Source: Pseudomonadota bacterium (lineage in GTDB: Bacteria > Bdellovibrionota > Bdellovibrionia > Bdellovibrionales > JACTMU01). From it: a DNA stretch of 64,000 nucleotides. Of the stretch, positions 16,016 through 31,895 are shown one piece after another. The stretch is from positions 1 to 64,000 of the forward strand of contig JACTMU010000080.1 of NCBI GenBank assembly GCA_014584465.1. Direction: 5' to 3'. The notes beneath the pieces are model-generated. The model saw only the letters and a list, made by a program, of their open reading frames with translations. It made no database searches and was not told the origin of the DNA. The position numbers and the translations under genes are program-made. Within the stretch, counting starts at the first letter, position 1. The number at the start of each line of letters is the position of its first letter.

Positions 16016-16743
16016 AGTCTGAAGGTCCAGAGTCACTTCTTTTGATTTTTGATCTTGATGACACTTTGGTTTCAACTTCGACTCTTCTGGTGCCAGAGGC
16101 ATTAAAGAGAGCCATTGAGATTATGGCTGGTGAGAGCAATTTGTGTGAAAAACCGCTTACTGCAAAATTGTGGAGTGAAGCCAAGTCCCTCTTTGATCAT
16201 GGATTCCCGGTGAGGGAGATTTTTCATCAAATTGCGAGCCAATTGGAAGGGTTGAGTTCGCAATTCAACACAGAGGATCTCGTGGCTCATGCTCTTCGAA
16301 GTTATCGAAGGCCCCAAATTCCAGAAAAACTTCCCTTGCTTGAGGGTGTGGCTGAGACACTTGATTTTTTGGGAAAGCGACACAAGCTGGCTCTGATCAC
16401 TCGAGGAGTTCCTGGTGTACAGCAGAAGAAGATTGAAGCTTTGGGTGTGGCGTCCCATTTTTGCCAGATCGTGTTGGTTGATACCGAAAGGGACGAACGC
16501 AAAGAGCACGGCTTTAGGAGCGTGTTGAATGCATTGGGTTTTGATTCTTCTCGAACGCTGGTGGTGGGAGATGACCCATGGGATGAACTTGCACAGGGCA
16601 AGGCACTGGGTTGTTGGACCTGCAGGACCGTTCAATCCCGATTCTTAAACGCGCCAACATCGGATCGTGTTTGCGACTTTCAGATTCAAAAGATGATGGA
16701 ACTTTTTGAAGTGGTCCAGGTGTTGGAAGATAGGATGAGGTGA
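16012..16743 (+). CDS. HAD-family hydrolase (phosphoglycolate-phosphatase-like)
   Basis: A 243-residue HAD phosphatase. Motif I is FDLDDTLVS with nucleophile D14 and general acid D16; a helical cap follows (residues about 30-100). Motif II is ALITRG, motif III a lysine in QQKKIEALG, and motif IV VVGDDPWDE. The cap type suggests small phosphorylated metabolites. It overlaps both neighbours by four bases (ATGA at 16012 and 16740), so all three are translationally coupled. The substrate is unknown; the M14 neighbour hints at cell-wall-derived compounds. Confidence 0.85.
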   Translation: MKSEGPESLLLIFDLDDTLVSTSTLLVPEALKRAIEIMAGESNLCEKPLTAKLWSEAKSLFDHGFPVREIFHQIASQLEGLSSQFNTEDLVAHALRSYRRPQIPEKLPLLEGVAETLDFLGKRHKLALITRGVPGVQQKKIEALGVASHFCQIVLVDTERDERKEHGFRSVLNALGFDSSRTLVVGDDPWDELAQGKALGCWTCRTVQSRFLNAPTSDRVCDFQIQKMMELFEVVQVLEDRMR

Positions 16744-18626
16744 TGTCTCAATTGCATTCAAGTGTTCTTATCATTGGTCACCCTGATCCGAGCCTCATCT
16801 CGTTTGGAGCTGACTTTGCCTCTTCGATGGAGGAGGCAACTTCGATGAACCTCCTCGAGAAGAGCTATTCACTGATCGCGTTTGAGATGGACGGCAAAGA
16901 TCATTTGCGCCAGATCCATTTTCTAAGGCAAGTTCAGGAGTCAAGCCCCCGCACACGGTTCATTCTTGTTGTGGGTGATGCACAAAGGGATCTCGTCAGT
17001 GAGCTCAGTTGCCACGGATCTCTTTTTAAGGTTCTCCCATCTTTTTTGAGTCACGAGTTTGAAGAGTCCATTCGCAAGGGACTGGAGCAAGAGGCTCTCT
17101 TTCAACAAAACAGAGAGCTCCTTCACCTCATTGTGGATCGCAATCGCACCCTTGAGGAAAATGCAATCAAGTTGCAAAGGCGCATTGACAAGCGTTCGAC
17201 CTACTTGGCTAAGGCAACGGATCGTCTACTCAGAACCAATCAGCAAATGGAACATCTGCATCAGGCCCTCATGGCCATTCATGAGGCTGGATCCACGTCG
17301 GAAGTTGAAAGCTCCATCTACAAGGTCCTTGGTAGAACCTTTGATCTTGCATGGATTCGTATTCTTAGAGGTGTGCATCCGGAGATGGAAAGTGAAATGA
17401 GGGGTGACCTCAAATCGAAGACGGTCTTCAGTGCCCCTCTTCTGGGTGAGTCCCGAAAGGGTAAAGAGCAGGTTGGACAGATCTATTTTGCCCGCGAAAA
17501 GCCCATGGAATTTACTCAAGAAGAGGATCACTTTTTTCTGCAAATCAGTGAGGCAGTGGCTCTTGCGGTTGATCGAATCGAGAAACTTGCCATGGTGGAA
17601 AGACTTAAACATCAATGGGAGGCGACCTTTGATGCAATTTCAAGACCTGTCAGTTTGGTCTCATCAGATTACATTTTAATCCGTACCAATCGGGCATTTG
17701 CTCAAAGAGTGGGAAGGTCCGCGCGAGAGATTATTGGTAAACATTGTTACAATGTCTTTTTAGGTCGATCGGATCCCTGTGTGGGGTGCCATTTGGGAAA
17801 GAACTTTCAGTTGAATGTGGCTGCAGAGGGCGAGTCGGATTCTTTGGTCTTTGAGGTTCTAAGTCATCGTGTGGATCAGGGTGAGAAGAAGCAAAAGACC
17901 TATGTCCACCTTTATGAGGATGTTACATTGAAAAGAGAGCTTGAGGCGCAGATGATCGATTCTGCCAAGATGGGCGAGCTTGGAGTCATTGGAAGCAGCA
18001 TTGCCCATGAACTCAACAATCCTTTAGGAGGAATGATTGCATTTCTTCACTTGGTGCGTGGAGATGTCTCATCGGACAGCCCACTACTAAAGGAAATTTC
18101 AGAGCTTGAACATGGAGCGCGTCGTTGTAAGGAGATCATTGAAGATCTCTTAGGTTTCAGTCGAGTTTCCACTGGAAAGCAACTTGATATGGTCGAAATT
18201 GGGCACGCCCTTGACCGAGCCGTGAGAATTGTTGAACTGCAAACTCGTGCAAGGGGCATTGTCATCGATGTGGAGCGATTGGAAGATGAAGTGTTTGTTG
18301 CCGCAACTGCAAATCTCCTTTCTCAGCTCTTTTATCACGTTTTAGACTTGATGGTGTCTCTCATTGAGGATCCTCCGGTGCTCCATGTGTCACTTCGTTT
18401 TGAGGAATCCTTGGTGACGGTTGATTTTGTTGTACGGACAGGATCTGAGGATTCGATCTCCATCCACCTCCCTGAAACACTCGTAGAGATGGTTGAATTT
18501 CTTGGAGGGCAGATTGAGTCTCAAGCAAGTCCATTCAAAGAGAATCGTTCATCCATTTGCAAGTCTCAAGTGGGGGTGTCAGTTCGTTTGCCCCTTGCTC
18601 CACGTTGGTCCGAAGAAGGGACTTGA
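16740..18626 (+). CDS. Sensor histidine kinase-like protein with degenerate ATPase domain
   Basis: A 628-residue soluble protein. The N-terminal 120 residues resemble a receiver, but the phospho-acceptor Asp is replaced in SLIAFEMDG. A helical region follows, then a GAF-like part (about 165-280) and a PAS domain (about 285-400) with three cysteines (CYNVF near 335, then DPCVGC near 348-351) that could bind metal or sense redox. The dimerisation H-box is intact (SSIAHELNNPLGG, His near 423). The C-terminal catalytic part has lost the N-box asparagine (FYHVLDLMVSL), and DxGxG and GTGLGL are missing, although the late VEFLGGQIES segment remains. It is probably not an ATP-using kinase. It is coupled to the HAD gene upstream and a small gene downstream. 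Confidence 0.8.
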   Translation: MMSQLHSSVLIIGHPDPSLISFGADFASSMEEATSMNLLEKSYSLIAFEMDGKDHLRQIHFLRQVQESSPRTRFILVVGDAQRDLVSELSCHGSLFKVLPSFLSHEFEESIRKGLEQEALFQQNRELLHLIVDRNRTLEENAIKLQRRIDKRSTYLAKATDRLLRTNQQMEHLHQALMAIHEAGSTSEVESSIYKVLGRTFDLAWIRILRGVHPEMESEMRGDLKSKTVFSAPLLGESRKGKEQVGQIYFAREKPMEFTQEEDHFFLQISEAVALAVDRIEKLAMVERLKHQWEATFDAISRPVSLVSSDYILIRTNRAFAQRVGRSAREIIGKHCYNVFLGRSDPCVGCHLGKNFQLNVAAEGESDSLVFEVLSHRVDQGEKKQKTYVHLYEDVTLKRELEAQMIDSAKMGELGVIGSSIAHELNNPLGGMIAFLHLVRGDVSSDSPLLKEISELEHGARRCKEIIEDLLGFSRVSTGKQLDMVEIGHALDRAVRIVELQTRARGIVIDVERLEDEVFVAATANLLSQLFYHVLDLMVSLIEDPPVLHVSLRFEESLVTVDFVVRTGSEDSISIHLPETLVEMVEFLGGQIESQASPFKENRSSICKSQVGVSVRLPLAPRWSEEGT

Positions 18627-18628
18627 TT

Positions 18629-18850
18629 GTGTTGAAACAACTTCTGGTCTTTTGTCAACAGACCGGACTGTCCGTGTGGCGAGGGAGTGTGAAGTGCTCT
18701 GCTCCCAACCAAGCCAAGCAGTGGGCTTCAAGCGTGATGTGTGTCCAGTTTTTGCAGGATCGACAGGGATTTGACGTTGCCATTTTTGACAGCGACAAAA
18801 AAAGACCCTACGATAAAAGAAGTGTTCTCAGAGCCTTTTCGGATTCATGA
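18629..18850 (+). CDS. Small protein resembling half a receiver domain
   Basis: A 73-residue protein from GTG 18629, with GAAGGGA seven bases upstream; a TTG at 18623 overlapping the kinase stop codon is an alternative. The layout LKQLLVFCQQTG ... VQFLQDRQGFDVAIFDSDKKRP resembles the first half of a receiver (strand 1 to the acceptor-Asp strand), but it ends soon after and lacks the acidic pair and the later Thr/Lys. It sits between the degenerate kinase and the NtrC-type regulator. The product was not recognised with certainty. Confidence 0.5.
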   Translation: MLKQLLVFCQQTGLSVWRGSVKCSAPNQAKQWASSVMCVQFLQDRQGFDVAIFDSDKKRPYDKRSVLRAFSDS

Positions 18851-18883
18851 AGAATTCGAAGTACCACCTAGGAAGGGGCCATC

Positions 18884-20281
18884 GTGCAATACTGTCGCAT
18901 CTTATTGATCGAGGATGATTCAGAACTAAGAAGTGCGCTCTTTCGTGTTTTGGAGCGTCGGGGCTATGAGGTCTTGCTGGCAAGTTCGTGTGGAGAAGCA
19001 CTGAGCATCGTCAAGTCAGAAAGAGCGATCGATCTTGTCCTGGTGGATCTTCGGTTGCCCGATGGTTCAGGAACCGATCTGATAGGACAAATCAAGGCAT
19101 CTCAGTCCGATGCCAGATTCATCGTCATTTCGGGATTTGCCACAATTGACGAAGCTGTTGTCGCAACTCAAAAGGGCGCCTCCCACTTCATCACCAAACC
19201 GATTGACATTGATCAACTCTTAAGTCGTGTTGAGAGCATACTTACTTTAAAGTCTATGAACGAGTCCAAAGTTCCTCGCCATCAAAAATATAAGAAGTTT
19301 GAGTTTGACAACATCATAGGGCAGAGCCCCGCTCTTTTGAAGGTTTTAGATTTGATAGAAAGGGTCGCAGATTCTGACTCGACCGTGCTGATTGTGGGAG
19401 AGAGTGGAACTGGAAAAGAGCTGGTGGCACGAGCCATTCACTACAACTCATTAAGGATGGAAAAGGCCTTTGTTCCAGTGAACTGTTGTGCGATCCCTCG
19501 GGATCTTTTAGAGAGCGAGCTCTTTGGCCACGTAAAAGGCTCATTCACCGGGGCACTTACCAATCGAATGGGTCGTTTTGAGCTCGCTCATGGTGGAACG
19601 CTCTTTCTTGACGAGATTGGAGACATGGAGCCAAATCTTCAGATCAAGCTGCTTCGTGTGTTGCAAGAGAAGAGATTTGAGCCGGTTGGAAGCACTCGAT
19701 CCGTTGAGAGCAACGCAAGGATCATCGCTGCAACCAATGTCGATCTGGAAAAGGCAGTTGCACAGGGAAAATTCAGAGAGGACCTCTTTTATCGACTCAA
19801 TGTCATTCCGATCAAAGTTCCGTCGCTTCGGGAACGGGTCACGGACATTCCTCTTCTTCTTCGGTACTACGTCAACTACTTCAACCAAAGCAAGAATCGA
19901 AAGATCAGTGGATTTTCGGACGAAGCCCTTCGAGCTCTCATCAGCTATCGATGGCCAGGCAACATTCGGGAGCTTGAAAATTTCGTAGAGCGCGTGGCCA
20001 TCATCAAAGGTGAAGGTGAGATTCAGATCACCGATCTGTGTGATCGCATGAGAGGAGGAAACCACGATCTCCCTCAAATGGAATCGGTGGCGGACATCCC
20101 GGAGATGGGTCTTGATTTCAATTCAGCTGTGGATGCCTACGAAAATGCACTTATCTCGAGCGCACTCAAACGCACCGGATGGAATCGCAATCGTGCTGCG
20201 ACTCTTCTCGGACTCAATCGAACCACTCTTGTGGAAAAGATTAAAAAGAAGGGACTCAAACCCCCCGAAGCCGGTGCATAA
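18884..20281 (+). CDS. NtrC-family sigma-54-dependent response regulator
   Basis: A 465-residue regulator with three domains: a receiver (LLIEDDSE; acceptor Asp in LVLVDLRLPDG), a sigma-54 AAA+ domain (Walker A GESGTGKE near 172, GSFTGA variant of GAFTGA, Walker B GGTLFLDEIGD, RPGN-type WPGNIRELEN), and a C-terminal Fis-type HTH (GWNRNRAATLLGLNRTTLVEKIKKKG). GTG start with GGAAGGGG upstream. Serine in GSFTGA is a tolerated variant in some family members, though it can change sigma-54 contact. It is the probable output of the coupled degenerate kinase and small protein. Confidence 0.93.
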   Translation: MQYCRILLIEDDSELRSALFRVLERRGYEVLLASSCGEALSIVKSERAIDLVLVDLRLPDGSGTDLIGQIKASQSDARFIVISGFATIDEAVVATQKGASHFITKPIDIDQLLSRVESILTLKSMNESKVPRHQKYKKFEFDNIIGQSPALLKVLDLIERVADSDSTVLIVGESGTGKELVARAIHYNSLRMEKAFVPVNCCAIPRDLLESELFGHVKGSFTGALTNRMGRFELAHGGTLFLDEIGDMEPNLQIKLLRVLQEKRFEPVGSTRSVESNARIIAATNVDLEKAVAQGKFREDLFYRLNVIPIKVPSLRERVTDIPLLLRYYVNYFNQSKNRKISGFSDEALRALISYRWPGNIRELENFVERVAIIKGEGEIQITDLCDRMRGGNHDLPQMESVADIPEMGLDFNSAVDAYENALISSALKRTGWNRNRAATLLGLNRTTLVEKIKKKGLKPPEAGA

Positions 20282-20422
20282 TATCCAGATCTGGTTTCGG
20301 CTCATTAAATTTCCTATACATTTGGTGGAGTTCGTTGTCGGAGGCATCCTTGCGCGTTAAGATAGAAGAAAATTAAGCAAGTTTCGCATCAAGCATTAAG
20401 CACATTCTGGTGAGGTGATTTT

Positions 20423-20698
20423 ATGTTAAGTCAGGTAAAAATCCGTTATGAAGGGAAAAGTTATGAATTCTCGTGCAGTGACAAGGTAACTATTTTGGAT
20501 GCAGCGATGGATGCGGGGGTGGACTTGCCGTCCTCTTGTCACTCAGGAACCTGCGGAGCATGTCAGGCACGATTGATTTCAGGGAAGGTTACAATGGAGG
20601 ATCAGAGTTTTCTCAATGATGAGGACATCAAATCGGGTCTCATTCTAGCATGCAGTGCTCAATGCGAGAGCGAAGAGGTCATGGTGGAGTTTGAGTAG
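20423..20698 (+). CDS. Plant-type [2Fe-2S] ferredoxin
   Basis: A 91-residue single-domain ferredoxin. Cluster ligands are C39, C44 and C47 (CHSGTCGAC) and C77 (ILACSAQC), the exact plant-type spacing. It carries electrons in the cytoplasm; the partner is not evident here. The start is supported by GGTGAGGTG upstream. The 141-base gap after the NtrC gene shows no terminator, so it may be the last gene of that operon or have its own promoter. Confidence 0.9.
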   Translation: MLSQVKIRYEGKSYEFSCSDKVTILDAAMDAGVDLPSSCHSGTCGACQARLISGKVTMEDQSFLNDEDIKSGLILACSAQCESEEVMVEFE

Positions 20699-20719
20699 AT
20701 CCGGGTTTCAATCTTCGTC

Positions 20720-20732
20720 CTTGACAGTCAAG
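20720..20732 (+). promoter_or_regulatory. Perfect dyad overlapping a TTGACA -35 element
   Basis: CTTGACAGTCAAG is a 13-base palindrome with one central base and contains a consensus -35 TTGACA (20721-20726). A weak -10 AAGACT follows 17 bases later. This may be promoter plus operator for the membrane protein gene at 20757. Confidence 0.3.
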
Positions 20733-20756
20733 GGAACGGTCGAAAGACTTTAAGTC

Positions 20757-21221
20757 ATGGTCTATCTTCGTAAATGGTTGATCCCGACGTTGGTCTGGGG
20801 AATGATCAGTTGGTCTCACTCTCTTCATGCTGAGCCGATGAGGGAGTTCATTCGTGCCTGTACCTATGGCGTTTTAGCCGGCACTCTAGTGGGCGCAGCG
20901 AGCTTGGCTTTCACAAGCAAGCCTGGGGATAACCTTAAGAACATTGCGCGTGGAGCATCCTTAGGGCTTTATGCGGGCATGGCGTTGGGGGCCTATGTGA
21001 TCTACTTCGTTCCGCCGGCAGGACAGATTCCAATGGACATTGAGGGCCCTCTTCCAGGTGATACTCCTATTGAGGATCAAATACCTGAGGAGTATGAAGA
21101 GGGAAGTTCAATCAATACTTTAGATCGCAGTCAAAATATCAGTTGGGTGCTTGAACCACTTTGGAACGAACTGGGTCGAGTGGATGGATTGTCACTGAAC
21201 GTTGCGATTTGGCAATTTTGA
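20757..21221 (+). CDS. Small exported membrane protein of unknown function
   Basis: A 154-residue protein. It has an N-terminal signal or membrane segment (WLIPTLVWGMISWSHSLHA), then two glycine-rich hydrophobic helices (YGVLAGTLVGAASLAF and GASLGLYAGMALGAYVIYFV, about residues 38-82) joined by a short polar loop (TSKPGDNLKNIARG), then an acidic Pro-rich tail. The GxxxG patterns suggest helix packing. The family is not recognised. Its 3' end overlaps the convergent gene (21192-21557) by 30 bases. Confidence 0.6.
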   Translation: MVYLRKWLIPTLVWGMISWSHSLHAEPMREFIRACTYGVLAGTLVGAASLAFTSKPGDNLKNIARGASLGLYAGMALGAYVIYFVPPAGQIPMDIEGPLPGDTPIEDQIPEEYEEGSSINTLDRSQNISWVLEPLWNELGRVDGLSLNVAIWQF

Positions 21222-21557
21222 GAGTCTTTGAAGTTCAAGTCGGCTCTTTTTAATCTTCTCCCTGAGAAACGCTTGCAGGGCAACTCGATTGGGTTGAGTC
21301 GCTTTCTGATCGTGGTCAACTTCAAAGGGCTCTGCAAGATAGAGCTCCTCGAGCTCTCGCTCATAATTTGACAAGAGATCTTGAATCCTCTGTTGCCTTT
21401 GGATTTGTTGCTTGTGATTCGGCCGCTCCTCTTGGGCCTCTGCATGGGATTGGTCTTGAGGTTCAAGGGGGTTGGAAGATGGAGTTCGACTCCCCAACGA
21501 GATCGCCGGTAGCGTCAAAAAAAGAATGACAAAACCAGATGTAATAACGGAGCTCAT
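21192..21557 (-). CDS. Small secreted coiled protein, unknown function
   Basis: A 121-residue protein with a signal peptide (VILFLTLPAISLGS) followed by a very polar Gln/Glu/Arg-rich body (QQIQRQQRIQDLLSNYERELEEL and a C-terminal LREKIKKSRLELQRLSK) that should be helical or coiled-coil. No family recognised. It lies 91 bases downstream of the adenylate cyclase gene on the same strand and could be the last gene of that operon; its 3' end overlaps the convergent membrane protein gene. Confidence 0.5.
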   Translation of the reverse strand: MSSVITSGFVILFLTLPAISLGSRTPSSNPLEPQDQSHAEAQEERPNHKQQIQRQQRIQDLLSNYERELEELYLAEPFEVDHDQKATQPNRVALQAFLREKIKKSRLELQRLSKLPNRNVQ

Positions 21558-21648
21558 TTCAAAAAGTGTATCAACGTTTCAAGGAGGTTCAAGTTGAGCT
21601 GATCAAACGAGCCTTAGTGCCAGGTTCCAAATGCTGGACGCACTCAGA

Positions 21649-23505
21649 CTAGGCGATCTTTGATTTTTCGCTGATCTCAGGAGGAAAATCCGAGTAGGAA
21701 GTTCGGACCTCTAGCTCCTTTCCCGCCTTGATGTAGCCGAGAACTTTGAAGAGCTCAAGAGGCTTTGACTTTCCTTTAACTTCGGCAAAACCAGCAGAGT
21801 GGGTCATAAAACGACTGCCTATGGTTTGTGCAGTTTCTTCACTGATGAGAAGATCAGTCCCAAAGGCCTTGGTGGAGGCCTCGATGCGTGATGTGAGGTT
21901 GACGTTGTCGCCGATCACTGTGTACTCCATTCGTTCGTCAGAACCGACCGTTCCGGCAATCACTTCTCCCGTGTGAAGGGCCATTCCCATTCGAATGGCG
22001 GGCTCACCGCGAGCCATTCGACGCTCATTGAGGTCGGCAAGAGCCGTTCGCATCTCAAGACAGGATTTGGCTGCAAGAAAGGGATCCTCTTGACTGGATT
22101 TTGGGGCTCCCCAAATGGCCATGATGGCATCACCGATGAATTTGTTAACAAAACCTCCGTTTCGGTTGATGATGGCGACCATGACTTCAAAGTATTCATT
22201 GAGCATCTGTACAACCTCTTCGGGTGTACGGCTTTCGCTAAATTTGGTGAAGTCACGGATGTCACTAAAGAAAACGGTCACATTTCTTCGTGTTCCACCC
22301 AGGTTGATCTTGGAACCCCTAAGTAGATCTTCTGCAACTGTGGAGCCATGAAATTTATTGATGAGATTTTTCATCTTGTCACGCTCGCGAAGACCACTTG
22401 TCATATCATCAAAGGCTTCGGCAAGTTCTCCCACTTCATCTCGTGATTTTACAATTGACGTTGCTCGAATCTCAAAATCTCCTTGGGCTACCTTCCGGGT
22501 GATTTCAAAAAGTTTTTCAATGGGCGAGGTCAACGTGATCGAAAAGAGAAAAACAAGAAATATCGATGCTGAAAAGGCAATTCCTGAAATGTAGATCGTC
22601 TGTCTGCGAACATCTTTGGCAGGCTCAAGGATGATCTCCTCCTTCACTTGGGAGATGAGAACTAGGCCGAGAGAGGTCCGCGTGTAGGCACCGACATACT
22701 TCTCTCCATCAAAGGGGTCTAAGTAAGGAGGAACTTGTCCTTGGCGAACCTTGGATTTGAGTGCTTCTTGCACGATTTCTAGATGGGCAAAACTCTGCGC
22801 CTTGGATGTGAAGGAATCATTCGGATGGGCAAGAATTTTTCCATCGGTGGTGATCAGAAACGATGTGCGTTCACTGGCAGAGGAAAAGGATTTTTGAAGA
22901 TGATCCAAGCGAATGTCCGCCATGGCAACATGGGTGATCGCACCATAGGAATCTTTGACAAAGGGGAATGAGATTGTAAACAGAGGAGGAGAGTCCTTTC
23001 CCATCGATGCGTTGCGAATGTCCATCATTCCGGAAAATGGCGAGTTGAGCTGCGAAGGAAAGGATCTTCGCAGAAGATCGATGTAGGATGAGTTTTGATT
23101 GTACTGTCGAAGATACTCTTCGTTGATGAGCGTCTTAAGTAATGTTCGTCGGTGTCCATCATAAGCCCATACAGAGAGTGCGACAAGATCTCGATCTTGG
23201 TGAAAGGTTAAATTGAGAAGATCCCCCTTGTCATCAGTTTGCAAAGAGTTTAGGAGGAGTCGAGCTGCAATTTCGGTTCGATTCAAGTAGTTTTGAAAGA
23301 GTGTTTCGATCTCCACCGCTTTGGCAAGTGATTGATCAAGATTGGTGGACTCCTCTCTTTTTCGGGATGCATTTTCAAAATATTGAGAGGTTGAAAATGC
23401 AAGTAGGACCGCAACGGTGGCAAGAAGACAGAGAGTCATCGCAATCAGCTTGACTGCTATGGGAAAACGTCCTTTTTTTCTCTTCAATTTCTTAGAACGT
23501 TTCAT
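21649..23505 (-). CDS. Membrane adenylate cyclase with periplasmic Cache-type sensor and HAMP domain
   Basis: A 618-residue class III cyclase making cAMP from ATP. Order: transmembrane helix (about 20-40), a large periplasmic sensor of Cache type (about 45-290), a second transmembrane helix (YISGIAFSASIFLVFLFSITL), HAMP (about 330-385), then the catalytic domain from about 409. All key residues are visible: metal Asp in FFSDIRDFTKF (D415) and in NKFIGDAIMAIWG (D459), adenine-selecting Lys in that NKFIGD, and the transition-state Asn/Arg in GDNVNLTSRIE. I chose the ATG at 23505, which overlaps the upstream stop as TGATG; an in-frame ATG lies 12 bases earlier. It is co-translated with the barrel protein gene. 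Confidence 0.9.
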   Translation of the reverse strand: MKRSKKLKRKKGRFPIAVKLIAMTLCLLATVAVLLAFSTSQYFENASRKREESTNLDQSLAKAVEIETLFQNYLNRTEIAARLLLNSLQTDDKGDLLNLTFHQDRDLVALSVWAYDGHRRTLLKTLINEEYLRQYNQNSSYIDLLRRSFPSQLNSPFSGMMDIRNASMGKDSPPLFTISFPFVKDSYGAITHVAMADIRLDHLQKSFSSASERTSFLITTDGKILAHPNDSFTSKAQSFAHLEIVQEALKSKVRQGQVPPYLDPFDGEKYVGAYTRTSLGLVLISQVKEEIILEPAKDVRRQTIYISGIAFSASIFLVFLFSITLTSPIEKLFEITRKVAQGDFEIRATSIVKSRDEVGELAEAFDDMTSGLRERDKMKNLINKFHGSTVAEDLLRGSKINLGGTRRNVTVFFSDIRDFTKFSESRTPEEVVQMLNEYFEVMVAIINRNGGFVNKFIGDAIMAIWGAPKSSQEDPFLAAKSCLEMRTALADLNERRMARGEPAIRMGMALHTGEVIAGTVGSDERMEYTVIGDNVNLTSRIEASTKAFGTDLLISEETAQTIGSRFMTHSAGFAEVKGKSKPLELFKVLGYIKAGKELEVRTSYSDFPPEISEKSKIA

Positions 23506-25202
23506 CAGAACCCCCATTCCAAGCGAAGATTGATGTAGTGGCCATCGATCTTGACGCGATTTTGGCTCTCAGACGCTATGGCCTTCGAGGATGAAGCTTC
23601 CCCCTGTGTTGTGGAATAGTAAGCTGCCTGATCGAGTCGATAGGCATATCCAAGGAGTCCGTTGACGGTTGGCCCCAGTTTCATGGTCCCCATCACCCCC
23701 AATTGATAACTGTTGGAAGGAAGAAGGTCTTTGTTGTTTGGGGTGGAGACCTTTGTGGTGGTTTGATAGATGCGACCATTGAGTTGCATTCCCAGACGTT
23801 GAGTGAAGGGCCACCAATATTCAATACCAAAATGGACTCCAGCCGAAGAGATGCGAGCAAGGGGCGCCTCGCCTCCTTCAATCCCTTGTACTTCAGGAAG
23901 TTCTTTCAAGTAGGGTCCACCGCTGATACGAAGTTGATTGGCATAACCTAGGAATTTTTTCCAAATGAGATGAAGTTCGGATGCAAAGAAGGTCACCGAT
24001 GTATTGTTGTAGAGGAATCCGCTCAGATCCACAAGTCCATAGTAGCCCCATGACCCACGGTAGGGAAAATGGGCAAGGCCCAAACGACCAGTGCCTCCAA
24101 GTGATCCAAATGAGGCTGTACTGCCGGTTTCAGGGTACTCGCCTCTGTAGTTCATTTGTGTCAGTAGATAGGTTGCAAAGAAGTAATAGGTCGTTTGGAG
24201 GTCGATGACGGATTTGAGCACCGCCTGCTGCTCGGCTGCGGGACTTCGATCCGCGTGGGCAGTGAACGCTATTTGCCTCCAAGGAGAGCTCTTTCTTAGG
24301 GGAGCCACTGCTTTGATCTTGAGACGATAGGAACCCTCGGGATAGGATTTATCAAAGAAGATGGAGGTCTTTTTGAGCCCACGCTTTCGTTCGAGAGTTT
24401 TCCAACGTTTGCCGTTGATGTTGTTATTGAGGAGTACTTGAAGAGTGTAACTGTAGCTTTGGGCACTAGGGACTTCGTTCCAAGAAATTTTGCGCACAAA
24501 TCCATTTTCGATGGGAGTAAGCTGAGGGGAGGCAAGGGGGCCTCCGAAGATGACGAATTGTCTTGCGGTTTGTGTTTTTTCCCCAGCTTCATCATTGGAC
24601 ATGATGGATTGAACCTTCCAAGTATATCTTCGTCCCACTGGGAGAGGAACTTCGATTGAGGTGTTTTGGGTTAACTCACGATGGATCTCCTTACCGTTTT
24701 CATCATCGACTTGAATCTCATACTGTGCAGCTCCAATTGAGGATTTCCATTGAAAGATGGTAGAGTGAGTCTCACTTTCAGTTGACCGCAAGATCTCATG
24801 CTCCTCGGGTCGAACGAGCTCCGGCGGAAGGGACTTGATCACAAACGAAGTCAAAGCACCCCATGGACCGGGAACACTTCGGGAGTCAAAGGAACGAAGT
24901 CTCATTCGATACTCTCCAAAAGTAAGCTCGCTCACCCAAGAGGGATCTTTCGTTTTGGCTGAGATGGGCGGGATTTCATCGGAGTCTTCTGGTGAGTTTG
25001 GATCAACGGGGCGAATCTCAACTTCGTAGAGAGTGGCACCCTCAATGGGCTCCCAACCTAAGGTGACGGTTCGCTTTAGACGCGCCTCGGGTGGAGATGG
25101 TTGCGCCTGGGTCACGCTGCCAAAGAGATTTAAGATGACAAGCCCTAATACCCACTGAAACGATTGAAGAGCAAGGTTTGGTGAGAGGCTTTGTCGTTTC
25201 AT
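23505..25202 (-). CDS. Fn3-repeat protein with C-terminal outer-membrane beta-barrel
   Basis: A 565-residue exported protein. The start at ATG 25202 gives a signal peptide (FQWVLGLVILNLFGSVTQAQ); the frame runs further upstream but there it overlaps the previous gene. The N-terminal part holds about three fibronectin-III-like units marked by LGWEPIEGATLYEVEI, FQWKSSIGAAQYEIQVD and ISWNEVPSAQSYSYTLQV. The C-terminal 230 residues alternate aromatic and small residues in amphipathic strands (YYFFATYLLTQMNY; GYYGLVDLSGFLYNN; YWWPFTQRLGMQLNGRIY) and end in Phe (LRLEWGF), the outer-membrane barrel signature. It begins four bases after the FecR gene stop and overlaps the cyclase start. Confidence 0.8.
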   Translation of the reverse strand: MKRQSLSPNLALQSFQWVLGLVILNLFGSVTQAQPSPPEARLKRTVTLGWEPIEGATLYEVEIRPVDPNSPEDSDEIPPISAKTKDPSWVSELTFGEYRMRLRSFDSRSVPGPWGALTSFVIKSLPPELVRPEEHEILRSTESETHSTIFQWKSSIGAAQYEIQVDDENGKEIHRELTQNTSIEVPLPVGRRYTWKVQSIMSNDEAGEKTQTARQFVIFGGPLASPQLTPIENGFVRKISWNEVPSAQSYSYTLQVLLNNNINGKRWKTLERKRGLKKTSIFFDKSYPEGSYRLKIKAVAPLRKSSPWRQIAFTAHADRSPAAEQQAVLKSVIDLQTTYYFFATYLLTQMNYRGEYPETGSTASFGSLGGTGRLGLAHFPYRGSWGYYGLVDLSGFLYNNTSVTFFASELHLIWKKFLGYANQLRISGGPYLKELPEVQGIEGGEAPLARISSAGVHFGIEYWWPFTQRLGMQLNGRIYQTTTKVSTPNNKDLLPSNSYQLGVMGTMKLGPTVNGLLGYAYRLDQAAYYSTTQGEASSSKAIASESQNRVKIDGHYINLRLEWGF

Positions 25203-25206
25203 AAGG

Positions 25207-27330
25207 CTATTTGATCTCCAACTTTTTGAGCGCTGGAGCACGGAGATGACTTGCATTAGGAACAACAATGGTGACCCTCTCACTTTCAGGTCCAACTCTG
25301 CCGAACCGGTCCATCGATTGAACCGTGAGCGTGTACTCACCCGGGTAGAGGTTCGAGAAGAGCTGTGTTGTTTCATTTGTTTTTGAGAGTTTGGGCGGCG
25401 AGTTTTTCGACATCAAAGTGAGCTGGTAGTTGAGGGCGCCCTGAACAGGTTGCCATTCAATTCGCGCCAGACCACTGTTGCTCGCTTTGATGGGGAGTTC
25501 ATCCTTTTGTGTGAATTCGGGTGCGGGTAAAAGAGGGAGGGGGGCAATGTCCATGATGCGTGCAGGGCTTCTTGCAACAACTTGATCTTGAGAGTTGAGT
25601 GCCTCAAGAACGAAGGTGAAGGTGCCATCGGAACTGAGGTGCTGTGTCGTGGAAGGTGTGGAGTTGAGGTTGATCCAAGTAGTCTTATCGAGATGGTCAT
25701 CTTGAGATGCCCACTTCAAGCGATATTTTGTTGCAGATGCGATTGGAGTCCACTTCAGTTCAACCGTGGGTCGTTCTGTGAGGTAGTTGAAAGTGGTGGT
25801 GGGGTCTATCCATGAGATCGTTTGGGTTGGTGCAATGAGAAAGTCGAGTGTTTCTGAAGGTTGAGAGGGCTCTTGATCGTGAAATGCGGTGACCGACCAC
25901 AGATAGCGACCGGGTTGAAGTTTGTGGTGAACATGTTTTGGCTTGTGAACGTTGATGACTTGGCGTTTGTTGTTATTTCCCATCTGCTTCCAGACAAGCA
26001 CAAGGGAGTAAGATGTGGCACTAGGAATGGGACTCCAGCTGAACTCAATGCCGTGGTCCTGACTTTCGAGTTGAGTGATGAGTTGTTTTGGTTGCGGGGA
26101 GAGAGGTATTGGAGTGGGAATCTTTTTCGAAGATGCAACGATGAACCATTGAGGGCCACTTTGTAGGGTTCGATCCAATTTCTTCAAATTTCCACTTACA
26201 CCCCAATAGTAGGTTCCTGGTTGAAGCAAGAGGTTTTCTTGATCTCCTGAAACCTCTTTGGCCCAGAGAGGCTTTTTAAGCTGCGGATCAGTTGAAACGA
26301 CAAGGTGCAAGCGTTCCAGGAGTCCTGGATTGGTCCAGCGAAATTGCACACCCGATTCGTTTGATTCGAGAGAAATTGTTTGCCCTTGACTTGGAGAGAG
26401 CAAACTGACTGGAGAAAGGGGTAAGATCTTTGTTTTTTGAATTTGACTTGTTAGGCGGGGTCTTCCCTGGTTGCTGGTCGCAATCAACCGCCAGTAGACA
26501 ATGCCTGGGGCAAGGGGCAGAGAGATCCTGCCAGATTCACCATGAGAGACGGCTCCACGGACTTCGTTGAGTCTTGATCGGGACTCACCCTTTTCGAAGA
26601 AGACCGTGTAGTCTGACCCCAAAGGTTGAAACTGGATTGAGAGTAGCTCTCTTTGCTTGGGATCAACGTAGAGATCGCTACCTTTCTTTGGAGAGAGAAT
26701 GTGGATGGAGTGATGGATCGTCTGAAGGCGATCATTCATAATGACTCCTGAGTTCCCCTCTTTGACACTGATCACCTTTCCACTGGACTCAATGTCCGCA
26801 CTTCCTGACAGGATGTCGACATTGAGATTTCGGTTTTGTTGCTTTCCTAGTGAGAGTTCAGTCTGGTGCAGAGATATCTGATGTGCTCCGGATTTGAGTG
26901 TAAGGGCTTCGTCCGGGATTGTGGTGCTCTTGGCACGCACAAAGAGGTTTCCTTCAATGAAGTTTAAGGCAACTTTTCCAGAGACCTCTTCAAGCACAAT
27001 CAGAGAGTTCGGCTCAAGATCGACGACGGTTTGAGATCGGAGAAACACAATCGAAGCGTGTGTCCCCTCATTTGTACGAAGCGTCTCTCCAGCGTAGAGA
27101 TCCTCATCAGCCTGAACGCTTTGCCAAATGATTCGGTCCACGGGCTTTCGTTGCACTTCATGGGTGAGATTTACAAGCTTGGCCAAAGGTTCTTGTGGGT
27201 TCTTAAACGCTCGTAACTCAGATTGTTTGAGTTGAGCGTGATTCCATGCAAAGGTGACCGCCATGGAGGTGAGCGATGCTGCGAGCGCAAAGGAAAGTCT
27301 CTTAAAGTTCTTTGACAAGCTCTTTGACAC
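25207..27330 (-). CDS. FecR-domain protein with Fn3-like repeats
   Basis: A 707-residue exported protein. The GTG start follows AGGAGG closely. After a signal peptide or anchor (FALAASLTSMAVTFAW) comes a FecR-like domain (about 65-200: IIWQSVQADEDLYAGETLRTNEGTHASIVF, LEEVSGKVALNFIEGNLFVRA), which in other systems senses or transmits envelope signals. Then come several Fn3-type units (RWTNPGLLERLHLVVS; FSWSPIPSATSYSLVLVW; LKWTPIASATKYRLKWAS; IEWQPVQGALNYQLTLMS), each with the W.P...A..Y pattern. First gene of a three-gene operon with the barrel protein and the adenylate cyclase. Confidence 0.8.
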   Translation of the reverse strand: MSKSLSKNFKRLSFALAASLTSMAVTFAWNHAQLKQSELRAFKNPQEPLAKLVNLTHEVQRKPVDRIIWQSVQADEDLYAGETLRTNEGTHASIVFLRSQTVVDLEPNSLIVLEEVSGKVALNFIEGNLFVRAKSTTIPDEALTLKSGAHQISLHQTELSLGKQQNRNLNVDILSGSADIESSGKVISVKEGNSGVIMNDRLQTIHHSIHILSPKKGSDLYVDPKQRELLSIQFQPLGSDYTVFFEKGESRSRLNEVRGAVSHGESGRISLPLAPGIVYWRLIATSNQGRPRLTSQIQKTKILPLSPVSLLSPSQGQTISLESNESGVQFRWTNPGLLERLHLVVSTDPQLKKPLWAKEVSGDQENLLLQPGTYYWGVSGNLKKLDRTLQSGPQWFIVASSKKIPTPIPLSPQPKQLITQLESQDHGIEFSWSPIPSATSYSLVLVWKQMGNNNKRQVINVHKPKHVHHKLQPGRYLWSVTAFHDQEPSQPSETLDFLIAPTQTISWIDPTTTFNYLTERPTVELKWTPIASATKYRLKWASQDDHLDKTTWINLNSTPSTTQHLSSDGTFTFVLEALNSQDQVVARSPARIMDIAPLPLLPAPEFTQKDELPIKASNSGLARIEWQPVQGALNYQLTLMSKNSPPKLSKTNETTQLFSNLYPGEYTLTVQSMDRFGRVGPESERVTIVVPNASHLRAPALKKLEIK

Positions 27331-27441
27331 GAACCCTCCTGATGTGTCATGGACAAGGACTTATCGGTTTATCTATGTCTATGTCGAAGTGGATCTAAGT
27401 CTAATCGGTGCCTGGCGCGAAACCTCATTTCGGCGAATTCA

Positions 27442-27497
27442 CCATAAGTTTTCCTTATACCTTCGTTCAGCCCCCTTGAGTTAGGGCCTCTGGCGAG
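27442..27497 (-). repeat. Fragment of the dispersed inverted-repeat family
   Basis: The plus-strand sequence from ATAAGTTTTCCTTATA through CTTCGTTCAGCC to TTAGGGCCTCTGGCGAG is about 85% identical, by eye, to the reverse complement of 54243-54300 in the full element. It contains the inner arm plus part of the centre but not the terminal GGGGCTGTCC arm. It lies in the 370-base gap between the FecR and metalloprotease genes, about 110 bases upstream of fecR. The rest of that gap shows only A/T-rich DNA. Confidence 0.65.
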
Positions 27498-27702
27498 TCC
27501 ATAAAGAAATCTTTAAGGCGCTTTCTCGAAAACAATTTTTTTTTCGTTACAGGTTCTTCTTTTGTTGAATTTTGGTGACAAAAAAGGACTTCTCTTTCTG
27601 AAACGTTTTCAATAGGTCTCACTTTCTAAAAACCAGGTTTGACTTTGATGGGACGTTGGCCTAGTTCTTTTGGAGGAACGTCTTTTTTGGGAGGAAGATC
27701 AA

Positions 27703-30294
27703 ATGTTTAGAGGAAAACAAGGGATATCATGGGATTCAAAAGGGCTGTTCACTCTTTTGGGGTTTGTTTTGGTATTAGGTGGATTGAGCGGGTGCTCTGA
27801 TCGGTACAAGAGTGAAGGCGATGGCAACCGCTATCATAAGGGGGTGGCCGCACCCAAAGATGTTTCCGCCTCTTTTGAGATTGTGTCTGCCAAAGATGCT
27901 CCAGAACTGCGCAAGATTGGAATAACATCTGGAGATTACCTTTCGATTAAGAAGAGTTCTTTAGATAAGGAGTTTTTACTTTCAGTCTCAATGATACCTC
28001 AACGAGTCCTACCCACAAGTGAAGGTCTTCAGGGTCGTATTGTGGCGTTCAAGCTCTATCATGGAAATCTTTTCTTGATGGAGGCCTCGCAAGGCCATGT
28101 GGTTACGAGTGATCTTCCTTCGAATCTCATTTTGGCGGAAATTCCGGTGTTGAGCGACGAACCTGATCGACTCGTGGTGGAGTTCAATCGAGGGATGAAT
28201 CGTATTTTTGTTGCATCTAATTGGAATACAGAGAGTGGTTACACCAACGAGGAACAAGTCAAGACTTTGAAAATCGTGGCGAGTTTCATAAAAAAGATGG
28301 AGATCGTTGAAGATCGACTGATTCTCAACCAGATTGCTCAAGTCGAGGATGGTGAAAAGGTTCCAAGTTTTGAAGCTCGATATGTCATTGTTCCCTATAG
28401 CGCCAACGAAAAATATCAGGCCAAACTCACTTCGGATTTCAAAAGAGTTGGTTTTTTTGAAGTGGCCACCCAGATTGAAGATGGCACTGGACGATATTTG
28501 AAGTACATCTCCAAATGGGATGATTCAAAGCCGATCGTCTATCACGTCAGTGCCAACACCCCCAAGGAGTACATCGATGCGATCAAGGAGGGAATTCTTT
28601 ATTGGAATGCAGCGTTTGGTCGTGAGATCGTAAAGGCTGAAGTGGCTCCAGAGGGGGTTACGGCACCGGATGCAAAGTACAACATTGTTCAATGGGTTCC
28701 TTGGGAAGAGGCGGGCTACGCCTACGCCGATGCTTTGATGGATCCTCGAAGTGGAGAGATTCTCCATGCTCAGGTCTATTTGACGAGTGTCTTTGCTCTG
28801 GGTGCGAAGATACGTGCGCGAGCTTTGCTACGTCGTCTTGATGACCATGATCACGGTCTGAAGTCTTCCATAGGACTTCGCGGTTTTTCATCATCACGAC
28901 TCTGCTCTTTAGATTTGGCCAGAAAGTGGGATCGTGCACTGAGTGCATTGATTGAATCCAATGCCTCGGAGGAGCAGATTCTTCGAGTTGCTCAAGATAC
29001 GCTTCGGATTGTGACGGCTCACGAAGTCGGTCACACGTTAGGACTTCGACACAATTTTGCGGGATCGCTCGCAGCAAGCGTCTCTTTGGAGACCCGCGAT
29101 GAGCAGATGAAAGAGTACATGGTTCACGGAACGATTCCAGATCCAGGAGTCAATATTTATAGCAATTCTGTGATGGAATATGCTTCGTTTGAGGATGATA
29201 CGCTCATGGCGGCACAGATGAAGGCTTCCAAAGCGCTCTTCTCCTATGATCAAGCGGCAATTCGTTGGGGATACAAGGGGGTTGAGGTTCAGCCGGAGGC
29301 ATCGTTGATCTTTTGCACTGATCAGCACACTGAAGTTTATAAAGACTGTCGTCGTTTTGATGAGGGTTCTGATGCCTTTACCTACTCCAAGTACATTATG
29401 AACAAATGGTTGGATTTGCTTCCTTATGAGATTGTAGAACTCTATGTGCGGGCAAAGTCTCCCTTTGATCCTCGTGACAAGAAGAATCTTGGTGAGGTGG
29501 TCCTTGGTTTGGATCGCACTTTGAATCGTGAGAAGGGCGAAGTTGCTCAGCTCTTGAGCTGGTTCAAAAAAGAGGCACGAGCCTGGACCGTCGAGAGTCA
29601 CTACCCCTATATTGGTCCCGTCCATCAGGAGCAGATTGAGAAGGAGAAGTTTTCGTGGCTTCACCAAGAGATTTTGAAAGAGGGGGGTGCGGACCAGGGG
29701 CTCTTCTGGTATCTTCCCTCAGAGTATGGTGGTTATGAGGGAGTGGCTGAAGCGGGCGTTAAGAGGTTGAAGGAGTATCTTGCAAAACCTAACGTCGTAA
29801 AAGGCATTGGCTACGGTGGAGAAACCTATGAGTTTTCGTCGGATGAGATTGCATTCATTGAAAAAGAGGGAGCTCGTTTCTTTGAAGTTCTTGAGTCCAA
29901 GTTGATCGATCTTTTCCTAAGTGAAGTAGGAAGTGCTCGTTTTGACCACGAAGCGATTGCGGAAGAGGTTGAAAAGTCTCTGAAGGGTGTTTCCAAAGAG
30001 ATCATTTTGAAAGTTAAGGAAGAGGTCCCCGACGGTGAGGTGCCTACCTATAAGCACTCTGCGGAACTTCGTTTGAAGGCTGCAAAGGTGCTTGATGTGA
30101 GTTTGGGTCCTGTCGTGGACTGGGGCTGGAGTGCTCGAGATGAGATTGCGAAAGCTTTGAAAGCGCACATGGAGAAGGCGACCAACAAGAAATACAAGGA
30201 CGTCGACATTGATGAGCTTCCATTGGATAAGAAACGATGGTGGATCGAGCAGATGGGCATCCTTCGCCAACTTGATCGAGGCTCGCCGCTCTAA
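27703..30294 (+). CDS. Large zinc metalloprotease lipoprotein
   Basis: An 863-residue protein. I start at ATG 27703, which has GGGAGGAAG before it; the frame opens at a TTG 33 bases earlier. A lipoprotein signal is clear: hydrophobic segment and lipobox (VLGGLSGC, Cys near residue 30). The catalytic helix is HEVGHTLGLRHNF (about residues 440-452), an HExxHxxGxxH zincin motif with the third ligand in the same block. A downstream Met-containing segment SVMEYASFEDD resembles the Met-turn. Related bacterial proteins (DUF5117/DUF4953 type) are of this size. It would sit in the outer membrane or periplasm; the substrate is unknown. It is monocistronic, with its own terminator. Confidence 0.85.
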   Translation: MFRGKQGISWDSKGLFTLLGFVLVLGGLSGCSDRYKSEGDGNRYHKGVAAPKDVSASFEIVSAKDAPELRKIGITSGDYLSIKKSSLDKEFLLSVSMIPQRVLPTSEGLQGRIVAFKLYHGNLFLMEASQGHVVTSDLPSNLILAEIPVLSDEPDRLVVEFNRGMNRIFVASNWNTESGYTNEEQVKTLKIVASFIKKMEIVEDRLILNQIAQVEDGEKVPSFEARYVIVPYSANEKYQAKLTSDFKRVGFFEVATQIEDGTGRYLKYISKWDDSKPIVYHVSANTPKEYIDAIKEGILYWNAAFGREIVKAEVAPEGVTAPDAKYNIVQWVPWEEAGYAYADALMDPRSGEILHAQVYLTSVFALGAKIRARALLRRLDDHDHGLKSSIGLRGFSSSRLCSLDLARKWDRALSALIESNASEEQILRVAQDTLRIVTAHEVGHTLGLRHNFAGSLAASVSLETRDEQMKEYMVHGTIPDPGVNIYSNSVMEYASFEDDTLMAAQMKASKALFSYDQAAIRWGYKGVEVQPEASLIFCTDQHTEVYKDCRRFDEGSDAFTYSKYIMNKWLDLLPYEIVELYVRAKSPFDPRDKKNLGEVVLGLDRTLNREKGEVAQLLSWFKKEARAWTVESHYPYIGPVHQEQIEKEKFSWLHQEILKEGGADQGLFWYLPSEYGGYEGVAEAGVKRLKEYLAKPNVVKGIGYGGETYEFSSDEIAFIEKEGARFFEVLESKLIDLFLSEVGSARFDHEAIAEEVEKSLKGVSKEIILKVKEEVPDGEVPTYKHSAELRLKAAKVLDVSLGPVVDWGWSARDEIAKALKAHMEKATNKKYKDVDIDELPLDKKRWWIEQMGILRQLDRGSPL

Positions 30295-30322
30295 GGGTCA
30301 TTTGCAGTGCTGAGTTTGTTTT

Positions 30323-30350
30323 GGGGGGCCAATGGTTCCCCATTTTTTTG
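30323..30350 (+). terminator. Rho-independent terminator of the metalloprotease gene
   Basis: GGGGGGCC (30323-30330), loop AAT, GGTTCCCC (30334-30341), forming 8 pairs with two G-U wobbles, then ATTTTTTTG. It lies 28 bases after the stop codon. Confidence 0.75.
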
Positions 30351-30376
30351 TATTCCTTTCTGGATTCGACGCTCTT

Positions 30377-30424
30377 TAGAAAACTTATAGAAATCGGCAA
30401 AAATGGAATTACCGGACAGCCCCT
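30377..30424 (-). repeat. Half copy of the dispersed inverted-repeat family, supplying the mgtE stop
   Basis: From AGAAAACTTAT through AATCGGCAAAAATGGAATT to CCGGACAGCCCCT it matches the right arm of the full element (54289-54336) with only a few differences. The left arm is missing. On the minus strand the element end reads AGGGGCTGTCCGG, and its first bases complete the TAG that stops mgtE at 30425-30423. Confidence 0.75.
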
Positions 30425-31895
30425 ACATATAGCCGACAAATTTAAGTCCGAGCGAAGCGATCCCTAAGAATGAAAAAAAGCCGAAGATGTCGGTGACCAC
30501 TGTGGCGAGAACTCCGCTTCCCACAGCGGGGTCCCATTTGAGGCGATTGAGAAGGAGCGGAATGACAACTCCGACAAGGGATGCAACGAGTGAGTTAAGA
30601 ACCATGGAGACGCAGATGACACCTGCAACCAAAATGGACCCCTTCCAAAGGTAGACAAGGATTGCAGCAAAAACACCTGTGAGTAGACCAAGACCAACTC
30701 CCACGGAGACCTCTTTCAAAAGAGCCTTTCTTTCGGTGATAAAATTGAAATCTCCTGTGGCAAGCCCTCGAGTGACCACCGTGAGGGTTTGAATGGCGGT
30801 GTTGCCCCCAATCCCGGCGACAATGTTCTTCAGACTTGCCAGAATGATCAACTGGCTCATGGTGTTTTCAAAGAGACTCACCACGGAGCTTGCAAGTCCA
30901 GAAAGAAAGAGATTGAGGACCATCCACGGAAGTCGATTGCGAAAACTCTTGCTTGCACGTGTGAAGATGCGATCATCCTCAGAAAGACCGGCGCGAGCAT
31001 AGAGGTCCGCCGTCACTTGCTCTTGGACAATGTCGACCACATCATCGACCGTGATGATTCCAAGCAAGTGGCGCTGATCGTCAGTTACAGGTAGTGCAAT
31101 AAAGTCATAATGACTCACCAGTTTGGCCACATCTTCTTCAGGAGTGTCGGCGGAGACCGAAATGACGTCCTCCTTCATGAGCTCTTCGAGGGGCTTGGTG
31201 GCAGGGGCAATGGCGAGAGTTCGAAGAGATAGGACGCCGCACAAACGACACTCTGAGTCAACACAATAGATATAGTGAATGGACATCTCTTGGGCATGGG
31301 CTCGAAGTCGATCAATCGCCTCATTGGCAGTCAGTGTTCGAGGAAGAGCAAAAAATTGGGTGTGCATGATTCGACCTGCTGAGTTCTCTGGATAGTTGAG
31401 AATCTGCAGTAGGCGGTTGCGGAGTCCCTCATCAAGCTGTTCGAGAAAATGGGTTCGAGGCTCTAGTTCCAGCAGGGAGACAAAGTAGGCGGCCTGCTCC
31501 TCGGGCGATTCAGTGATGAGTCGTTTCAACAGAGGAGGATCAAGTTTTGTAAGAAGCAAAACCAATGGCTCTTCGGGCATCTCGATCAAGGCGCCAGCTG
31601 CCTTGCCCATGGAGAGTAGGACCTCCAAAAGGAGCCTCTTTTCTCGCTGTCCCACACTGCCAAGAAGGGAGGCCATATCGACCGAGTTGAGACGGTGGAG
31701 TATGCCGCGCAGAGGTTTGCTATTGCGTCCTTGAAGGAGTCGTTTAATAATGGAGATGTTGGTTGGATTCAGTCGCATCTTCAACAGATCTCGCAGGGTG
31801 ATTTGAAGCTGTTGATGGTAAAGTTTGTCTCGGTCATGAATGCAAATTCGCGACAGCGACCAATAGATGGTCTCTTTTTTTCTTGATTGCGTCAA
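30423..31895 (-). CDS. mgtE: MgtE-family magnesium transporter
   Basis: An inner-membrane Mg2+ channel. It has the N-terminal superhelical MgtE_N domain (HRLNSVDMASLLGSVGQREKRLLLEVL), a CBS pair (about 185-300, including IHYIYCVDSECRLCGVLSL and VTDDQRHLLGIITVDDVVDIVQEQ), and a five-helix transmembrane domain (LPWMVLNLFLSGLASSVV; GIGGNTAIQTLTVVTRGLATG; GVVIPLLLNRLKWDPAVGSGVLATVVTDIFGFF) with the pore Asp in TDIFGFF. 490 codons is slightly long; an ATG at 31778 (MRLNPTNIS) may be the true start. The stop codon comes from the repeat element, so the last residues (VGYM) may have been changed. Divergent from greA. Confidence 0.9.
   Translation of the reverse strand: MTQSRKKETIYWSLSRICIHDRDKLYHQQLQITLRDLLKMRLNPTNISIIKRLLQGRNSKPLRGILHRLNSVDMASLLGSVGQREKRLLLEVLLSMGKAAGALIEMPEEPLVLLLTKLDPPLLKRLITESPEEQAAYFVSLLELEPRTHFLEQLDEGLRNRLLQILNYPENSAGRIMHTQFFALPRTLTANEAIDRLRAHAQEMSIHYIYCVDSECRLCGVLSLRTLAIAPATKPLEELMKEDVISVSADTPEEDVAKLVSHYDFIALPVTDDQRHLLGIITVDDVVDIVQEQVTADLYARAGLSEDDRIFTRASKSFRNRLPWMVLNLFLSGLASSVVSLFENTMSQLIILASLKNIVAGIGGNTAIQTLTVVTRGLATGDFNFITERKALLKEVSVGVGLGLLTGVFAAILVYLWKGSILVAGVICVSMVLNSLVASLVGVVIPLLLNRLKWDPAVGSGVLATVVTDIFGFFSFLGIASLGLKFVGYM

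Follow-up and report, generated by a model that had tools for sequence, protein, structure and literature searches.

Three adjacent genes on the minus strand of a 64,000-nucleotide stretch of Bdellovibrionales DNA (the window) raise the question of whether an outer-membrane barrel, a FecR-domain protein and a membrane-bound cyclase work together as one signalling unit. Read directly from the window, the genes lie in the order FecR/Fn3 protein, Fn3-barrel protein, cyclase (Table 1). The first two are separated by four bases (cctt), and the ATG of the cyclase gene overlaps the stop codon of the barrel gene in TGATG. The gene coordinates, both junctions and the three domain assignments, all proposed in a first-pass annotation, were confirmed by direct reading together with Pfam and AlphaFold2 (AF2). 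That annotation had further counted a small secreted coiled protein, whose ORF begins 91 bases beyond the cyclase gene, as a member of the unit. The ORF is an orphan, with no relative in the 143 other genomes of the class or in the fetched operons, and was ruled out as a fourth component; it has a weak RseA_C match, below the cut-off. Promoter and terminator scans near the operon remained at about chance level. A metzincin-type protease gene (DUF4953; window 27670-30294, plus strand) is divergent from the operon, with 339 bases between them.

Table 1 Features of the three-gene unit, in window coordinates.
Feature	Position	Strand	Basis or remark
FecR/Fn3 bridge protein	25207..27330	-	707 aa, GTG start; orthologues; AF2 model
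N-terminal transmembrane anchor (residues 9-30)	27241..27306	-	AF2 helix 3-43
FecR domain region (residues 49-207)	26710..27186	-	Pfam FecR in 28/43 orthologues
Five Ig/Fn3-like domains (residues 211-690)	25261..26700	-	AF2, Foldseek, domain occupancy
Conserved C-terminal tail, ends NASHLRAPALKKLEIK	25210..25260	-	Proposed docking element for barrel protein
Fn3-barrel outer-membrane protein	23505..25202	-	565 aa, C-terminal Phe; AF2 pLDDT 89.3
Three Fn3 domains (residues 44-315), predicted periplasmic	24258..25073	-	AF2, Foldseek
Conserved helix between Fn3 and barrel (residues 319-336)	24195..24248	-	AF2, conservation
10-strand beta barrel (residues 339-565)	23508..24188	-	AF2, Foldseek match to OpcA
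Membrane cyclase, TM-dCache-TM-HAMP-class III catalytic domain	21649..23505	-	618 aa; Pfam
Periplasmic Cache sensor (residues 39-302)	22600..23391	-	dCache_1 in 36/40 orthologues
HAMP domain	22372..22530	-	40/40 orthologues
Class III (IIIb-like) adenylate cyclase domain	21751..22299	-	Pfam, invariant residues
Small ORF, judged outside the unit	21192..21557	-	121 aa; without relatives

The barrel protein has no Pfam match. Its AlphaFold2 model, built on 47 orthologues, places a helix between three Fn3 domains and ten long strands (mean pLDDT 89, mostly above 90 in the strands), bearing out the barrel that had been postulated for this product. The hallmarks of an outer-membrane barrel are present: ten antiparallel strands, a family most of whose members end in Phe, and an N-terminal hydrophobic segment. 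The barrel part is structurally similar to OpcA of Neisseria meningitidis (PDB entry 1k24; Foldseek E-value of 1.1e-6, TM-score of 0.63 on the target, 10% identity), and the Fn3 part to fibronectin-type chains. OpcA, an outer-membrane protein of the same barrel fold with 10 strands, is however an adhesin without Fn3 domains. A scan of named genomes with the barrel protein singly gave no confirmed match. The helix at residues 319-336 is the most conserved part of the protein, and polar or charged residues are conserved in alternation along the barrel strands (R373, D392, E434, D524 and E562).

In the model, the Fn3 domains most likely lie in the periplasm, because they are N-terminal to the barrel, which has an even number of strands and closes with the terminal Phe as its last residue. 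The barrel turns on the Fn3 side are nearly fixed in length (2-7 residues), consistent with a periplasmic placement, and two loops on the other side vary in length, up to 25 residues. The first-pass annotation had considered that the Fn3 repeats might contact a surface ligand, which their predicted periplasmic placement and the short predicted surface loops (2-17 residues) speak against.

The AF2 model of the FecR/Fn3 protein (pLDDT 91) begins with a transmembrane helix and continues through a FecR domain and five Ig/Fn3-like domains to a loosely ordered tail. Pfam FecR covers residues 83-178 of the window member with an E-value of 1.9e-4, just under the curated cut-off, and reaches 1.5e-9 in the best of the 28 matching orthologues. 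The Fn3-like domains match fibronectin chains in Foldseek; their number varies within the family, and the third Ig/Fn3-like domain is missing from most relatives. The anchor helix matches the FecR domain in conservation, which peaks in the C-terminal 17 residues of the protein: this tail scores 0.52, against 0.27-0.38 for the FecR domain and for the Fn3 domains of good occupancy. A conserved membrane anchor at one end and a conserved tail at the other point to a bridge.

In the cyclase, Pfam identifies Guanylate_cyc (E-value of 1e-27; 97 bits against a cut-off of 21.9), HAMP (2.5e-8) and dCache_1 (6e-8), and the first of these is matched in 40/40 orthologues. The residues D415 and D459, K455 and T529, and N536 and R540, which we take to be the metal-binding, adenine-binding and transition-state residues of class III cyclases, respectively, are invariant in the 40 orthologues. 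The protein is therefore assigned, as the first-pass annotation had it, to the class III adenylate cyclases with a Cache sensor; the catalytic residues are intact, and cAMP is its predicted product. A CHASE2 sensor was found in none of the orthologues, and 36 of the 40 have dCache_1. The genome from which the window derives encodes three class III cyclases in total, and its 13 cNMP-binding domains are possible receivers of cAMP. In Bdellovibrio bacteriovorus strain HD100, bd1116 is listed as an annotated cyclase (PMC6717892); from the position of the barrel gene at 1.05 Mb in genome G073, we infer that bd1116 is the cyclase of the operon.

With somewhat better than even confidence, we read the unit as a three-part trans-envelope receptor running from the barrel through the FecR/Fn3 bridge to the Cache-HAMP cyclase. 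The barrel protein would span the outer membrane, its three Fn3 domains extending into the periplasm. The FecR/Fn3 protein would be held in the inner membrane by its single helix, with the FecR domain close to that membrane. From there four or five Fn3 domains would reach outward as a stalk, ending in the conserved tail of about 16 residues, which would dock on the barrel protein at its periplasmic side. An event at the barrel, be it a ligand, prey contact or membrane stress, would pass through tail and stalk to the FecR domain and on to the periplasmic Cache domain of the cyclase, and the HAMP domain would relay it to the catalytic domain, changing cAMP. An outer-membrane-to-cAMP relay, as suggested in the first-pass annotation, is the best reading. 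What the data show is the conserved linkage, the predicted barrel, the anchor, the intact catalytic residues and the partition of tail and FecR domain by partner described below; the physical contacts, the direction of the signal, its ligand and its sense (activation or inhibition) are inferred.

The short extracellular loops are unusual for a receptor of large ligands, which counts against this reading; the barrel may report the state of the membrane and not a large ligand. It is conceivable, though we judge it unlikely, that the barrel serves only as an outer-membrane anchor and that the unit gauges envelope spacing or tension with no extracellular ligand: membranes moving apart, through prey entry or through osmotic or wall stress, would pull or loosen the bridge and so set the activity of the cyclase. 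A long stalk of variable domain number, a tail resembling a fixed tether point and the shortness of the loops would all suit such a device, whereas the alternating conserved polar positions in the barrel suggest a role in a pocket or lumen beyond anchoring, and the Cache domain suggests a small-molecule input.

In profile searches for the cyclase sensor, the barrel and the FecR protein, run on one common set of 144 genomes of the class, 68 genomes had all three genes and 64 had none. These counts rest on score thresholds and hand-transcribed lists, and they come from related, hence non-independent, genomes, so that Fisher values for them cannot be read as probabilities. Presence is all-or-none even inside genus g2 (all three genes in G162, G107 and G253; none in G005, G089, G203 and others), and every sampled genome of genus g8, home of B. 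bacteriovorus (strain kdesi, L115), has the three. The usual order is FecR-barrel-cyclase and recurs in dozens of genomes, which is more than chance would give; the single conserved operon and the co-occurrence among relatives that the first-pass annotation proposed are thereby upheld. In a sample chosen by barrel, a FecR gene lies directly upstream of 49 of the 59 strong barrels, mostly with a 4-base overlap, and a cyclase gene directly downstream of 38. The cyclase gene is convergent beside the barrel gene within 0.2-2.3 kb in several families (L048, L053-L055, L059 and L083) and divergent from the FecR gene in L074 and L075, so the association outlives rearrangement; in G259 and G273 the barrel gene has been relocated in the genome and the FecR and cyclase genes are still adjacent. 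A second sample, of named genomes chosen by alignment to the cyclase sensor and not by barrel, has FecR and/or barrel nearby in 50 of 55 loci (both in 44), the remaining five being mostly contig ends. Judged by title in two search patterns, full-length relatives of the sensor are almost solely of Bdellovibrionota type (Bdellovibrionales, Bacteriovoracaceae, Halobacteriovoraceae and Oligoflexales). One locus, L149 (CALQIT020000073.1), is titled Streptomyces griseus and carries the operon; the same content occurs in G269:C73, of the Bdellovibrio order, and the record is probably mislabelled.

Two observations from these searches count against the receptor: G220 has a tailed FecR protein and a cyclase with no barrel orthologue found, and solo barrel paralogues without a FecR neighbour occur in L041, L050, L065, L091, L094 and L096. 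The solo barrels of one genus (L041, L091, L094 and L096) adjoin a very large secreted protein, with Calx-beta repeats in L094, the sole one scanned, and in three of these four loci a Cache histidine kinase stands beside the barrel (L094 scanned). Solo barrels beside a Cache histidine kinase and a Calx-beta lipoprotein were not counted as evidence for a kinase pairing, no FecR protein being adjacent. The solo barrel of L065 adjoins an RCC1-repeat lipoprotein, and that of L050 a NIT-domain hybrid kinase.

The distribution of the bridge tail, defined as the motif AP-x-hydrophobic about ten residues from the end, separates the family by partner. It is present in 54 of 55 members with a barrel partner and in 0 of 23 without, against a background of 8 in 1769 other ORFs. 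Those that carry it include 42 of 43 operon FecR proteins, all nine diverged FecR proteins accompanied by a diverged cyclase (at loci that also carry a diverged barrel, except the contig-truncated L177) and all three of a set of short proteins (178-198 aa) consisting of a membrane anchor, one Fn3 domain and the tail. The single Fn3 domain of the short proteins is homologous to the last domain of the FecR proteins, and their genes directly precede a third class of Fn3-barrel gene; they are without a FecR domain and no HAMP transducer is adjacent. The 23 tail-less proteins are a second FecR/Fn3 protein, read in the window's own genome and 22 others, with no barrel neighbour. In 21 of these 23 loci, the own genome included (L178, L179 (own genome, G000:C25), L188, L189-L204, L206 and L208), the gene is head-to-head with that of a HAMP-SpoIIE protein; Pfam on three such proteins confirmed SpoIIE and HAMP, with a weak dCache in two. 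Proteins with both the FecR domain and the tail have both partners, and the two distributions together link the tail to the barrel and the FecR domain to the HAMP transducer. The Fisher p of 7e-19 overstates this partition, because the operon, paralogue-plus-barrel and SpoIIE-linked FecR proteins each form one clade, and about one evolutionary event, a gain or a loss, may lie behind it rather than dozens. FecR proteins whose barrel gene is elsewhere (L183, L185, L111 and L112) or about 6 kb away (L119 and L120) keep the tail. Its persistence without an adjoining barrel gene ruled out the tail as a by-product of the ribosome-binding site of the next gene.

These patterns bear on the proposal, which we regard as improbable, that the three genes form one regulon without mutual signalling, the cyclase sensing through its own Cache domain while the barrel and the FecR protein perform an unrelated envelope job. 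Cache domains usually bind small ligands themselves, and some barrels have no adjacent FecR or cyclase gene, as such a regulon would allow. Against it stand the all-or-none presence over the 144 genomes, the association retained after rearrangement and the recurrence of FecR/Fn3 proteins as partners of HAMP transducers with differing outputs. Classical FecR-type signalling, in which the FecR protein would act as anti-sigma factor on a sigma factor whose gene lies elsewhere, has the homology of the FecR domain in its favour and is nonetheless hardly credible here: the cytoplasmic end of the protein, with fewer than 10 residues and these unconserved, leaves no room for an anti-sigma domain, the barrel with its 10 strands and no plug is not a TonB-dependent receptor, and in none of the ten neighbouring genes (16740-31895) did Pfam find a sigma factor domain. 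The unit resembles FecI-FecR-FecA in having an outer-membrane barrel and an inner-membrane FecR protein that would communicate across the periplasm, with the FecR periplasmic domain present; it differs in lacking the sigma factor output, the anti-sigma N-terminus and the TonB-dependent 22-strand receptor, in line with the distinction drawn in the first-pass annotation.

Two features go beyond that annotation, the conserved bridge tail and the exchange of the output domain. The FecR/Fn3 paralogue and its HAMP-SpoIIE phosphatase probably make up a second system for envelope signalling in the class. More tentatively, at slightly below even confidence, we propose that barrels are plugged into Cache-HAMP transducers by adaptors of a single family, built of anchor, FecR domain, Fn3 stalk and tail, with the output swapped between a cAMP cyclase and a SpoIIE phosphatase and the adaptor kept. 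No report of such a modular architecture with exchangeable output appeared in the literature searched. Histidine-kinase outputs had been expected in the paralogous modules, but most of these are cyclases too, and the swap found is to SpoIIE. The diverged cyclases of the paralogous modules (L169 and L174; 836-1038 aa) carry a GYF_2 domain at the end of a long C-terminal extension.

The statement in the first-pass annotation that no receptor with this architecture was familiar has to be tempered by comparison with characterized systems. In Sinorhizobium meliloti, the outer-membrane barrel NsrA is needed for the inner-membrane class III cyclases CyaK, CyaD1 and CyaD2 to raise cAMP, with experimental support (PMC7529298, PMC13001267). 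The likeness, drawn from described roles, lies in the combination of an outer-membrane barrel with an inner-membrane class III cyclase; the cyclases of that system have CHASE2 and not Cache sensors, and the two papers describe no FecR bridge with an Fn3 stalk in one operon (PMC7529298, PMC13001267). Outer-membrane-to-cAMP relays are thus already known, and the present unit is, by analogy, a variant that would do the same job as NsrA-CyaK/CyaD (PMC7529298). FecR genes also cluster with CHASE2 cyclases: Campylobacterota have a cluster of a CHASE2 cyclase, a phosphodiesterase, a FecR-domain outer-membrane protein and a TPR protein, for which the authors propose one pathway (PMC9239204). It shares with our unit a conserved FecR-domain gene beside a membrane adenylate cyclase; the CHASE2 sensor, TPR protein and phosphodiesterase are peculiar to it, and no separate Fn3 barrel is described. 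In Myxococcus xanthus, a FecR lipoprotein and a LysM/Fn3 protein are encoded beside PmxA, of c-di-GMP/cGAMP metabolism (PMC8844925), again giving a cyclic-nucleotide enzyme FecR and Fn3 neighbours, though in a different architecture. No description of the operon in Bdellovibrio was found in the literature searched.

A cAMP-controlled c-di-GMP phosphodiesterase, Bd1971, is known in Bdellovibrio, where production of cAMP is believed to occur in various phases of the life cycle (PMC6717892). The operon offers a concrete and genetically testable surface-to-cAMP route in Bdellovibrio-like predators; if it is wired as proposed, surface events could be reported inside the cell. The tail/barrel partition offers a precise candidate docking site for mutation, and the paralogues linked to SpoIIE suggest a broader set of envelope receptors built on one common adaptor.

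The third class of Fn3 barrel (L076, L077 and L078), with the short anchor-Fn3-tail protein before it, is flanked by glycine-rich proteins. Next door in L077 is an S74-peptidase fibre that resembles the MAT prey-recognition fibres (PMC10769870), and fibres of this kind could dock on the third-class barrel at the outer membrane. Elsewhere in the window's own genome (L180:6420-9065; G000:C73), a Ser/Thr protein kinase is fused to Fn3-like repeats resembling those of the FecR and barrel proteins.
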